From Desulfuromonas sp. (GTDB lineage: Bacteria; Desulfobacterota; Desulfuromonadia; Desulfuromonadales; UBA2294), in contig PKTZ01000209.1 of NCBI GenBank assembly GCA_002868925.1, forward strand, positions 1 through 32,423: a stretch of DNA of 32,423 bases, given 5' to 3'. Positions 11,958 through 17,122 of this stretch are shown here, in pieces (positions within the stretch are counted from its first letter, which is position 1; every line of letters starts with the position of its first letter). The notes under the pieces are model-generated. The model did not search any database. It was not told the DNA's origin and saw only the letters and a list, made by a program, of their open reading frames with translations. Made by a program: the position numbers and the translations under genes.

Positions 11958-12035
<78 letters not shown>

Positions 12036-12039
12036 TCAT

Positions 12040-12076
12040 AAAAAGAGCGATCCTTTTCAGGGTCGCTCTTTTGTTT
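12040..12076 (+). terminator. Intrinsic terminator of tRNA-Pro
   Basis: The stem AAAGAGCGATCC / GGGTCGCTCTTT (one G-T wobble) with a short TTTTCA loop is followed by TTTTGTTTT. It starts six bases after the tRNA 3' end. The same hairpin recurs near 14.86 kb, and in altered form near 17.09 kb. Confidence 0.88.
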
Positions 12077-12146
12077 TGCCCTCCGGTCCATGTCCGGTCC
12101 GGACACATCCCCAAACTACATATTTAGAAACTGCTGAAATGTTGTT

Positions 12147-12195
12147 ATGGCCACTCCGGTCCCGGTATTTCTCTCCGGGGCCCATCCGGGGCGGG
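12147..12195 (+). repeat. 49-bp direct repeat, copy 1 (flanks receiver gene)
   Basis: It begins ATGGCCACTCCGGTCCCGG and ends CATCCGGGGCGGG. It matches 12736-12784 at about 45 of 49 positions in the same orientation. Each copy contains a GTCCCGG ... CCGGG(A/G)C inverted repeat and so may fold as a GC-rich hairpin. The pair encloses about 590 bp holding one minus-strand receiver gene. Confidence 0.85.
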
Positions 12196-12228: not shown

Positions 12229-12648
12229 TCAGTGGGGCTGGCTATCACACAACCTTTGACCACACTCATCTACCCAAGTCAAAAGGTCAGCCATCTTGAA
12301 TGGTTTTCCTATGAGATGACAACCCAAATCGTCTATCTCGTGTTTCATTTCTTTGATCAAAGGAGAACCTGACATCAGTGCTTTGTTTTTATCTACTAAT
12401 TTACATCCTCGTTTTCGCTGTAGTTTGAAAAAATCTAAACCCGTCATTCCGGGCATTTGGAAATCAGAAATAATAACATCAGCACAGCGGCAATTCTGGG
12501 AACATTGCATTCCGTGATCCTTAAATACGGGACAGCTTGTTGGTCTAGGGAACACACGAACTTCATGACCTGCATGCAACAATACTTCTTCTATCAATAT
12601 TGCCAAAACAGCCTCATCTTCGAAAACAAAAACATTAAGTTTCTGCAT
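12229..12648 (-). CDS. Stand-alone response regulator receiver with cysteine-rich insert
   Basis: A 139-residue CheY-like receiver with no output domain. The acidic pocket is Glu10-Asp11, the phosphoacceptor is Asp62 in [17 protein letters not shown], a Ser sits in ALMSGSP, and the conserved Lys is in IGKPF. Between strand 2 and the phosphoacceptor lies a cysteine cluster (Cys39, Cys49, Cys53, Cys55; CSQNCRC), which is not part of a normal CheY and could bind metal or sense redox state (inference). The frame stays open upstream into repeat copy 2, but the ATG at 12648 has AGGAGG close by and gives the receiver N-terminus. No cognate kinase is adjacent. Confidence 0.85.
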
Positions 12649-12735
12649 GCTCCTCCTACTATCATTAGAGATAGCCAATATAATGCCTTGCACGCAACAC
12701 CTAATCAATACTCTTTCAAGAATTACCATCCAGTG

Positions 12736-12784
12736 ATGGCCACTCCGGTCCCGGGATTTCCCTCCGGGACTCATCCGGGGCGGG
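12736..12784 (+). repeat. 49-bp direct repeat, copy 2 (flanks receiver gene)
   Basis: Second copy of the 12147-12195 repeat, with a perfect 7-bp GTCCCGG/CCGGGAC inverted repeat inside. It lies about 90 nt upstream of the receiver start codon, so it could also affect that gene's expression. Confidence 0.85.
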
Positions 12785-12786
12785 TG

Positions 12787-13089
12787 GAAAATCAGTTGTC
12801 TTGTTCCCTAGGCTTGGAGGAGTCCGGAACTTTTGTGAGGCCAAAAACCTCAAGCTCTCCGTGATATTACTGAAAATCCCAAAAATATACGGCAGTTGCC
12901 TTCATCAATATGCCTTCATCATTTACTATTCTTTAAAGGGTCCGCTGAACATTATTTAGATTACATCGACATAGGATAATCAGAACATAGAAAAATGATT
13001 GTGATTTAAGGACGTTACAAGTTATGGTGAGGTATCCGCAAATTAGATAGCAAGAAAACAGACTATTAGGTATATCAATTGCTAATTGC
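12787..13089. other. Gene-free AT-rich stretch
   Basis: I see no convincing gene here. It starts just after repeat copy 2 and runs to the inverted repeat before the riboswitch. Open frames on either strand lack ribosome-binding sites and recognisable protein features. The promoter for the downstream riboswitch transcript must lie in its right part. TTGTGA and TATGGT near 13.0 kb are weak candidates. Confidence 0.5.
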
Positions 13090-13135
13090 CACTTAGATGT
13101 AAACCTGTAAATACGAGGATGTTTACATCTAAGTG
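13090..13135 (+). repeat. 15-bp perfect inverted repeat abutting the riboswitch
   Basis: CACTTAGATGTAAAC (13090-13104) and GTTTACATCTAAGTG (13121-13135) are exact reverse complements with a 16-nt loop. The right arm ends in AAGTG, which is also the probable 5' strand of aptamer stem P1. If transcribed, this hairpin could compete with aptamer folding; if upstream of the transcription start, it could be an operator. Confidence 0.8.
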
Positions 13136-13200
13136 CCAAACCTGCTGTGAGGCAGGGACGGAAAGCCACGGGTCTTTTTATAAGACAGCCGGGTTGCATT
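13131..13200 (+). promoter_or_regulatory. Cyclic di-GMP-I (GEMM) riboswitch aptamer
   Basis: The GEMM-I core is readable. CCAAACC opens stem P2 (CCTGCT/GGCAGG) with a GTGA tetraloop at 13147-13150. It is followed by GGGACGGAAAGCC and stem P3 (GTCTT/AAGAC), closing with CAGCCGGGTTGC. Compared with the Vibrio Vc2 aptamer, GGCAAACC/GACGCAAAGCC has become GCCAAACC/GACGGAAAGCC, a compensatory G-C to C-G swap supporting real structure. The nucleotide at the specificity position (20 in Vc2 numbering, from memory) seems to be G, which favours c-di-GMP over cGAMP. The 3' strand is shared with a terminator, consistent with a ligand-dependent ON switch. Confidence 0.85.
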
Positions 13201-13225
13201 CAAATAAATGCGACTCGGCTTTTTT
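13187..13225 (+). terminator. Riboswitch expression-platform terminator
   Basis: AGCCGGGTTGCATT (13187-13200) pairs with AATGCGACTCGGCT (13207-13220) using two G-T wobbles, followed by TTTTT. The left arm is the 3' strand of the GEMM aptamer, so aptamer and terminator are mutually exclusive. Ligand binding should favour read-through. Confidence 0.85.
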
Positions 13226-13232
13226 GCGTTCA

Positions 13233-13319
13233 ATGATGGGACTTGTGGACGATGATAATTTCCCCAATGACCACTTGCTGAACAAAGTAAACATACAAAC
13301 TGTGAAAGAAGAGAATTGA
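13233..13319 (+). CDS. Possible 28-residue leader peptide after the riboswitch
   Basis: A short frame starting ATG ATG directly after the riboswitch terminator and ending in TGA that overlaps the ATG of the next gene (TGATG). The peptide begins MMGLVDDDNFPN and is acidic. There is no clear ribosome-binding site. The overlap would allow translational coupling to the Cys-rich protein, but it could be chance. Confidence 0.25.
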   Translation: MMGLVDDDNFPNDHLLNKVNIQTVKEEN

Positions 13320-13540
13320 TGGTATGTGAAAGATTCGAGCAATGCTCTTTTTATAATGGCAAAAAGTTCAAACTTAGTAAAAAGGAGTTTGACCTTTTTG
13401 TCTCTACTTATTGTTGTGATGGTAATTTGCAGTCAGTATGCAAGAGACGCCAATGGCGGAATGAATACGGCACTGAGCCACCCGAGGAATTGTGCCCAAA
13501 CGGGTATTCCGCAATTTCTAGAGCAAAAATTTATCAATAG
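13319..13540 (+). CDS. Small Cys-rich protein under c-di-GMP riboswitch control
   Basis: A 73-residue cytoplasmic protein. Its pattern CERFEQCSFYN, then TYCCDGNLQSVCKRR and PPEELCPNGY, resembles a group of small Cys-rich proteins I recall from Geobacter-like bacteria, with an early C-X5-C-x-F-Y-N, a middle YC-x-G(D), CxR, and a P-x-x-L-x-PN ending. Function is unknown; the cysteines may bind metal. ATG 13319 is used because the TTG just upstream adds nothing; the ribosome-binding site (GAAGAG) is weak. It is the first substantial gene downstream of the riboswitch and is closed by its own terminator, so it looks like the sole target. An overlapping frame (13356-13544) would encode a membrane-like peptide but is less convincing. 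Confidence 0.6.
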   Translation: MVCERFEQCSFYNGKKFKLSKKEFDLFVSTYCCDGNLQSVCKRRQWRNEYGTEPPEELCPNGYSAISRAKIYQ

Positions 13541-13548
13541 ATGATGCC

Positions 13549-13580
13549 AAGCCCCAGCCACCTCCGGTTGGGGCTTTTCA
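13549..13580 (+). terminator. Intrinsic terminator after the Cys-rich gene
   Basis: AAGCCCCAGCC and GGTTGGGGCTT form a stem with one G-T wobble and a 6-nt loop, followed by TTCATTT. It closes the short riboswitch-controlled unit. Confidence 0.8.
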
Positions 13581-14805: not shown

Positions 14806-14894
14806 CTTCAGGAACAAGGTATGGTGATTCCTCCTCTCGCCCCGACCAATTATAAAAAGAGCGATCCTGATCAGGGTCGCTCTTTTGTTTTACC
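14806..14894 (+). repeat. Decayed tRNA-Pro 3' half plus terminator, copy 2 (putative attachment-site remnant)
   Basis: CCTCTCGCCCCGACCAAT (14833-14850) is identical to the 3' end of tRNA-Pro at 12019-12036. The following TATAAAAAGAGCGATCC ... AGGGTCGCTCTTTTGTTTT is nearly identical to the native terminator. Upstream, CTTCAGGAACAAGG still resembles the anticodon-arm region CTTCGGGAGCAAGG, while the T-arm is broken. The spacing to the native copy is 2.81 kb. Confidence 0.88.
14855..14892 (+). terminator. Intrinsic terminator (second copy of tRNA-Pro terminator)
   Basis: AAAAGAGCGATCC (14855-14867) pairs with GGGTCGCTCTTTT (14874-14886) around the loop TGATCA, followed by GTTTT. It should still work and may terminate transcription from the exported-protein gene. 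Confidence 0.82.
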
Positions 14895-15063
14895 CAACGA
14901 AACGCACCCGGGGGCTGCGAGAGGACATTCAGTGCGGCACGAATTGCAACTTGTAAGGTCTTAAATTGCTGATAATGTTAATAAGTAGCCACAACAATAT
15001 AAAAAGCATGCATAGAGCAGATCATCTACTTATGAGTTAATTTGCACGAGGAACAAGAAAGGC

Positions 15064-17055: not shown

Positions 17056-17086
17056 AAAGGTTCCTCCTCTTTCCCCGGCCGATCAT
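17056..17086 (+). repeat. Decayed tRNA-Pro 3' end, copy 3 (putative attachment-site remnant)
   Basis: AAGGTTCCTCCTCTTTCCCC followed by GGCCGATCATAAAAAGAGC aligns with the native GGTTCAAATCCTCTCGCCCC and GACCAATCATAAAAAGAGC. It is more diverged than copy 2. The spacing to copy 2 is 2.23 kb. Together the copies bracket two small gene sets. Confidence 0.7.
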
Positions 17087-17122
17087 AAAAAGAGCTCCCG
17101 GAAAATCTGGGGGCTCTTTTAA
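17087..17122 (+). terminator. Intrinsic terminator at the right end of island B
   Basis: AAAAGAGCTCCC (17087-17098) pairs with GGGGGCTCTTTT (17109-17120), one wobble pair, with a 10-nt loop. The stem base is shared with the tRNA-Pro terminator but the upper stem differs. Confidence 0.82.

Follow-up and report, generated by a model that had tools for sequence, protein, structure and literature searches.

A GEMM-I riboswitch with a shared-strand terminator upstream of a small four-cysteine protein gene in Desulfuromonas sp.

Organisation and genomic surroundings of the locus

The window, i.e. the whole stretch of DNA analysed, comprises 32,423 nt of contig PKTZ01000209.1 from Desulfuromonas sp. 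(assembly GCA_002868925.1). It carries a GEMM-I (c-di-GMP-I) aptamer at 13125–13202 (+), located with Rfam covariance models and an alignment. An intrinsic terminator obtained from a terminator search and folding overlaps its 3′ end at 13187–13220 (+; 14 bp, loop of 6, U-tract). The downstream gene at 13319–13540 (+) encodes a protein of 73 aa belonging to a four-cysteine domain family (P0001). A purine-rich stretch resembling a ribosome-binding site, AAGAG, precedes its ATG, and both the gene start and the position of C3 agree with the family alignment. The gene is followed by a second intrinsic terminator with 11 pairs at 13549–13576 (+). An earlier note on this DNA, which had described a 73-residue gene closed by its own terminator, was thus correct on this point. 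It did not mention the tRNA flanks of the unit, the inverted repeat in front of the aptamer, the weakness of P1, the base change at A18, or the family of the encoded protein and its fusions to PilZ and to chemoreceptors.

A tRNA-Pro gene is located on the upstream side of the riboswitch unit at 11958–12034. Its 3′ end together with a terminator (12018–12081, +) is repeated at 14832–14895 (94%) and partially at 17061–17095, and the first two of these copies flank the riboswitch unit. Fragments of the tRNA-Pro 3′ end were also found elsewhere in the same genome (C58, C150, C18 and C159), dispersed and of several lengths; those checked lacked an intact tRNA gene. On C150, a phage-type integrase adjoins another GEMM-I, and at a locus from another family (L053) a GEMM-I and a four-cysteine gene directly follow tRNA-Pro. 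The fragments look like serial islands inserted at tRNA-Pro. Based on the fragments, the C150 integrase and the arrangement at L053, the riboswitch unit may be cargo of such tRNA-targeted islands. A separate 52-nt repeat (90%; 12144–12195 and 12733–12784) flanks a response-regulator-like gene at 12229–12774 (−). Its third copy was observed at C58:36585, where a tRNA-Pro fragment likewise precedes it by about 130 nt.

Aptamer, ligand and switching

The earlier note had assigned the element to the GEMM-I class and named a covariance-model search as the check. This search yielded 61.1 bits for RF01051 at 13125–13201 (+), with the full model covered and a curated cut-off of 35, which confirms the class. 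The interval given before, 13131–13225, starts too late and clips the 5′ end of the aptamer, since the Rfam matches begin at 13125 or 13126. The c-di-GMP-I-GGC model (RF03167), reported first by cmscan, scored 60.2 bits at 13126–13202 (+), a margin of 1.2 bits above its cut-off of 59, yet the aptamer has A13162 where the consensus of that model has G (model position 37, equivalent to A47). The score therefore does not make it a GGC variant, and this label was rejected.

The aptamer shares P2, P3, a GNRA-type loop and the ligand-contacting bases G20 (G13135), A47 (A13162) and C92 (C13197) with RF01051. P2 forms a hairpin of 6 bp at 13141–13156 (+; 13141–13146 with 13151–13156) according to sequence and folding, and its GUGA tetraloop at 13147–13150 is the one noticed before. 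Differences from RF01051 are a weak P1, G (13133) at the A18 position and a C-G pair at 21-46 (C13136-G13161), next to the pair 22-45 (C13137-G13160). The compensatory pair change that had been placed in the tetraloop receptor is present, but it is this pair 21-46 at the base of the aptamer core, a flip which marks a whole GEMM-I subtype. The description of the aptamer as well formed goes too far: the 5′ strand is overlapped by an 18/19 inverted repeat, the Rfam P1 positions are unpaired and the base at A18 is G.

A at position 20 is the base change known for cGAMP-type GEMM-I riboswitches (GEMM-Ib). The window aptamer has G13135 at this position, and c-di-GMP is the likelier ligand because the pocket consists of G20, A47 and C92. 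The preference for c-di-GMP over cGAMP that had been predicted from a specificity nucleotide G agrees with the c-di-GMP-type pocket suggested by G20 and C92. That the aptamer instead responds to 3′,3′-cGAMP is highly unlikely given these two bases, even though 13 of the 26 GEMM-I matches in the same genome carry A at position 20 and cGAMP-binding GEMM-I riboswitches predominate in Geobacter sulfurreducens (PMC8835794). Twelve of the remaining matches have G20 and one has C20; since A20 and G20 aptamers coexist, both messengers are probably used in this genome.

Several of the GEMM-I copies in this genome precede cytochrome-like, response-regulator or secreted-protein genes. The aptamer with C at position 20 (L010) is located before a multiheme cytochrome-like gene. 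Four aptamers (L003, L203, L210 and L196) combine G20 with U at position 92. A U here could form a pair with adenine or a wobble pair with guanine, so that an altered ligand choice is possible. Tandem double or triple GEMM-I with a shared-strand terminator on each were observed at L187, L188, L189, L191 and L204.

When folded alone, the terminator at 13187–13220 has an energy of −21.6 kcal/mol (z −6.6). The aptamer's 3′ strand, C92 included, doubles as the 5′ arm of this terminator, and C13197 pairs with G13210 in the 14-bp stem. The 14-bp terminator sharing the aptamer 3′ strand, proposed earlier, was thereby recovered with all 14 pairs and with C92 sequestered. In the absence of ligand, 13187–13200 would pair with 13207–13220 and RNA polymerase would stop at the U-tract. 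Upon binding of c-di-GMP, G20 would contact G-alpha and C92 G-beta, with A47 between them. The 3′ strand would then be kept in the aptamer, the terminator would not form and the 73-aa protein would be made.

An equivalent arrangement was described for the pilM riboswitch of Geobacter metallireducens, a GEMM-I cGAMP ON-switch that can form either the aptamer or the terminator but not both, C75 being taken by G102 in the latter (PMC9262584). In both cases the terminator is made from the 3′ strand of the aptamer itself and sequesters the ligand-pairing base (C75 in pilM, C92 in the window). The window riboswitch differs from pilM in its c-di-GMP-type pocket base G20, in its 5′ strand lying inside an inverted repeat and in its target, a small four-cysteine protein. 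Because aptamer and terminator are mutually exclusive, an ON switch is predicted, and the sequence backs the earlier prediction to that effect. We infer the ligand identity from the pocket bases and the switching direction from the sequence and the likeness to pilM. Related C21-G46 GEMM-I riboswitches with CGGAAAG were found in many of the order's genomes. A terminator of this shared-strand kind is present in most of them, and several occur in tandem; they were picked by DNA similarity, and this type is over-represented among them as a result. Since it uses the expression platform already known from pilM, the riboswitch itself is not new but an ordinary one of known architecture.

Taken together, the locus probably encodes a pilM-like c-di-GMP-I riboswitch that turns on transcription of a single gene, whose product would be a standalone four-cysteine signalling protein.

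The upstream inverted repeat

A peculiarity of the window copy is an inverted repeat with arms of 19 nt, TTGCCACTTAGATGTAAAC at 13086–13104 (+) and GTTTACATCTAAGTGCCAA at 13121–13139 (+), which are complementary at 18 of 19 positions. The 3′ arm covers the P1 5′ strand, J1, G20, C21 and C22. In the alignment, the Rfam model's P1 positions showed no pairing. The sole P1 found is shifted and weak, lies within the repeat and pairs GUUUACAU (13121–13128, +) with AUUCAAAU (13198–13205) at 6 of 8 positions. It is about 2 kcal/mol dearer than no P1 and competes with the inverted repeat.

None of 2000 shuffles reached the score of the repeat, which is hence not a chance feature. Among 87 GEMM-I scored alike (the window copy and 86 others), it scored 16.5 compared to 9.6 for the next. 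It is also not a general feature of GEMM riboswitches, as it was seen neither in the 86 other aptamers nor in a DNA search of 136 genomes, a search of limited sensitivity for diverged DNA. Nearly all matches of that search begin in the G20 region (query 75–76, corresponding to 13134–13135) and none extends to the 5′ arm, indicating that the repeat is private to the window copy as far as visible. A role as terminator of the upstream gene was rejected, since no U-tract follows it. Another strong hairpin with 19-nt arms is located about 60 to 20 nt 5′ of the L003 aptamer, which belongs to the same GEMM-I subtype and the same genome, and does not overlap that aptamer.

Whether the 5′ arm would be part of the RNA depends on the promoter. 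GEMM-I relatives usually have a TTGACA-type promoter, with the −10 end preceding the aptamer by about 7–50 nt (median about 23). Only two promoter candidates, both weak, were found in the window. The better-scoring one is sigma70-like (TTGTGA-18-TATGGT, 12999–13028, +) and reaches a score of 8.8, while relatives often score above 10; if used, it would lead to transcription of the repeat. The other one (TTGCCA-16-TAAATA, 13086–13113, +) lies within the repeat, has a score of 7.5 and fits the relatives in position; if used, it would leave the 5′ arm outside the transcript.

Step-wise folding predicts that a transcribed hairpin forms first, persists and dominates each step from 13130 on. The energies obtained were −24.1 kcal/mol for the core without the hairpin, −44.5 kcal/mol for the best fold preceding the terminator and −58.5 kcal/mol for hairpin plus terminator. 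In these models the hairpin, if transcribed, would block P1, and its most likely effect is a weakened P1 that raises the ligand level needed. The repeat is either such a weakener of the switch, or promoter DNA, or a mark of decay.

As promoter or operator DNA, the repeat would never be represented in the RNA by its 5′ arm: transcription would start near 13120, and a dimeric regulator that recognises the palindrome may add a second level of control to an otherwise normal riboswitch. We regard this as doubtful, albeit the least improbable of the alternatives. For the TTGCCA-16-TAAATA candidate, the distance of 10 nt between the end of its −10 element and the aptamer falls into the range seen in relatives, but this element is weak and the better-scoring candidate is located 85 nt farther upstream. 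In addition, arms of 19 nt exceed those of usual operators, and no regulator was identified. Decay of the aptamer is quite unlikely by comparison. In that case a local inverted duplication by template switching would have created a hairpin of about −20 kcal/mol and abolished P1, and the gene would be mostly off whatever the ligand level. The restriction of the repeat to one copy out of 87 (16.5 against 9.6 for the next), the start of the block conserved among relatives near G20 and not in the 5′ arm, the prevalence of the hairpin at every folding step from 13130 on and the A18G change would all fit with decay. However, when shortened to 13 bp the hairpin still allows the core to form with its pocket bases free (−41.4 kcal/mol, compared with −44.5 kcal/mol for the best pre-terminator fold), and core, terminator and reading frame are all intact.

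The four-cysteine family and its association with GEMM-I

The family alignment features four invariant cysteines together with invariant R, P and G residues. In the window protein these correspond to C3, C9, one of C32/C33, C41, R43, P60 and G62. A profile search detected the family in 48 of the 136 genomes examined from the order, with up to 10 copies per genome, and in 21 of 297 genomes sampled phylum-wide, including that of the window. Named relatives come from Desulfuromonadales/Desulfuromonas or Deltaproteobacteria assemblies. Comparison of a narrower family alignment with genome contigs yielded 10 loci, the last of which (L120, Mucilaginibacter) lacks the cysteine domain.

The four-cysteine domain gave no Pfam or NCBIfam score above the curated cut-off and no sequence match in the PDB. 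No Pfam family matched any of 27 members or the chemoreceptor-fused copy of L232. S-100 was rejected for the 73-aa protein, as it scored far below its cut-off, and a literature search found no paper naming this small family. The structure model of the protein is helical but too poor to use (mean pLDDT 61). Owing to this low confidence, it is the four invariant cysteines that argue for metal binding; they suggest a metal site or a redox pair.

The family members nearest in sequence to the window protein are longer by about 100 residues, which Pfam assigns to PilZ with E values of 3e-4 to 2e-3, below the curated cut-off. The model of one such fusion has a mean pLDDT of 68 and six strands, and its first eight PDB matches in Foldseek are PilZ domains or PilZ-containing complexes. 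PilZ is a c-di-GMP receptor fold. The closest relatives (L052, L101, L103–L105, L122 and others) thus resemble PilZ proteins (PF07238) in having a C-terminal PilZ-like barrel, whereas the window protein consists of the four-cysteine domain only and stops before this domain. The PilZ fusions L052, L101 and L122 have a GEMM-I about 35 nt upstream; that of L104 is weak.

In two distant members (L232 and L233), the four-cysteine domain is found at the C-termini of chemoreceptors with HAMP and MCPsignal domains. Chemoreceptor zinc-binding (CZB) domains are likewise small, contain cysteine and are attached to chemoreceptors. The CZB site of three His and one Cys differs from the four invariant Cys of the present family.

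By the model built in this analysis, a GEMM-I is located 30–330 nt upstream on the same strand at 12 of 107 family loci. At the Rfam cut-off, a GEMM-I lies within 330 nt upstream at 11 of 107, the riboswitch of L104 not being reported at that cut-off and thus excluded. Based on 16–38 GEMM-I per genome and assuming about one gene per kilobase, the expected rate is about 0.8% of genes. The binomial probability is 8e-11 for 12 of 107, and 3e-5 when the loci are collapsed to about 7 lineages. The family-associated riboswitches include both G20 and A20 types. In the window's own genome, a second member (L074/L019) has an A20 riboswitch in front of it and a third (L081) lacks one. A single small gene of this family under GEMM-I recurs in about 7 lineages, and the locus is therefore not the unusual minimal regulon that the earlier note had taken it for.

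As judged from its sequence, the 73-aa protein is probably a metal-binding one (Zn or Fe-S) that serves the cyclic-dinucleotide and chemotaxis network as a small adaptor or as a redox-sensitive output. This role is proposed on account of the fusions of this domain to PilZ and to chemoreceptors and of its repeated occurrence under GEMM-I. What the switch would deliver in its ON state is accordingly an undescribed four-cysteine domain in standalone form, with such a putative adaptor or output function.

This family looks like an unnamed output module of the c-di-GMP signalling network. A more far-reaching reading joins two proposals. The domain would be an undescribed metal- or redox-sensing output module for cyclic dinucleotides, occurring standalone under c-di-GMP- or cGAMP-type riboswitches, fused to PilZ or fused to chemoreceptors. 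The window riboswitch would at the same time be controlled by a 5′ hairpin in its transcript that takes the place of P1, and would need both ligand and hairpin opening. We consider this combination unlikely. If the repeat over the aptamer is transcribed, it offers a test of whether GEMM-I works without P1. The family itself, nameless so far, is tied to c-di-GMP or chemotaxis in three ways, namely by RNA control, PilZ fusion and chemoreceptor fusion, and is a testable candidate for a missing cyclic-dinucleotide output in metal-reducing relatives of Geobacter.
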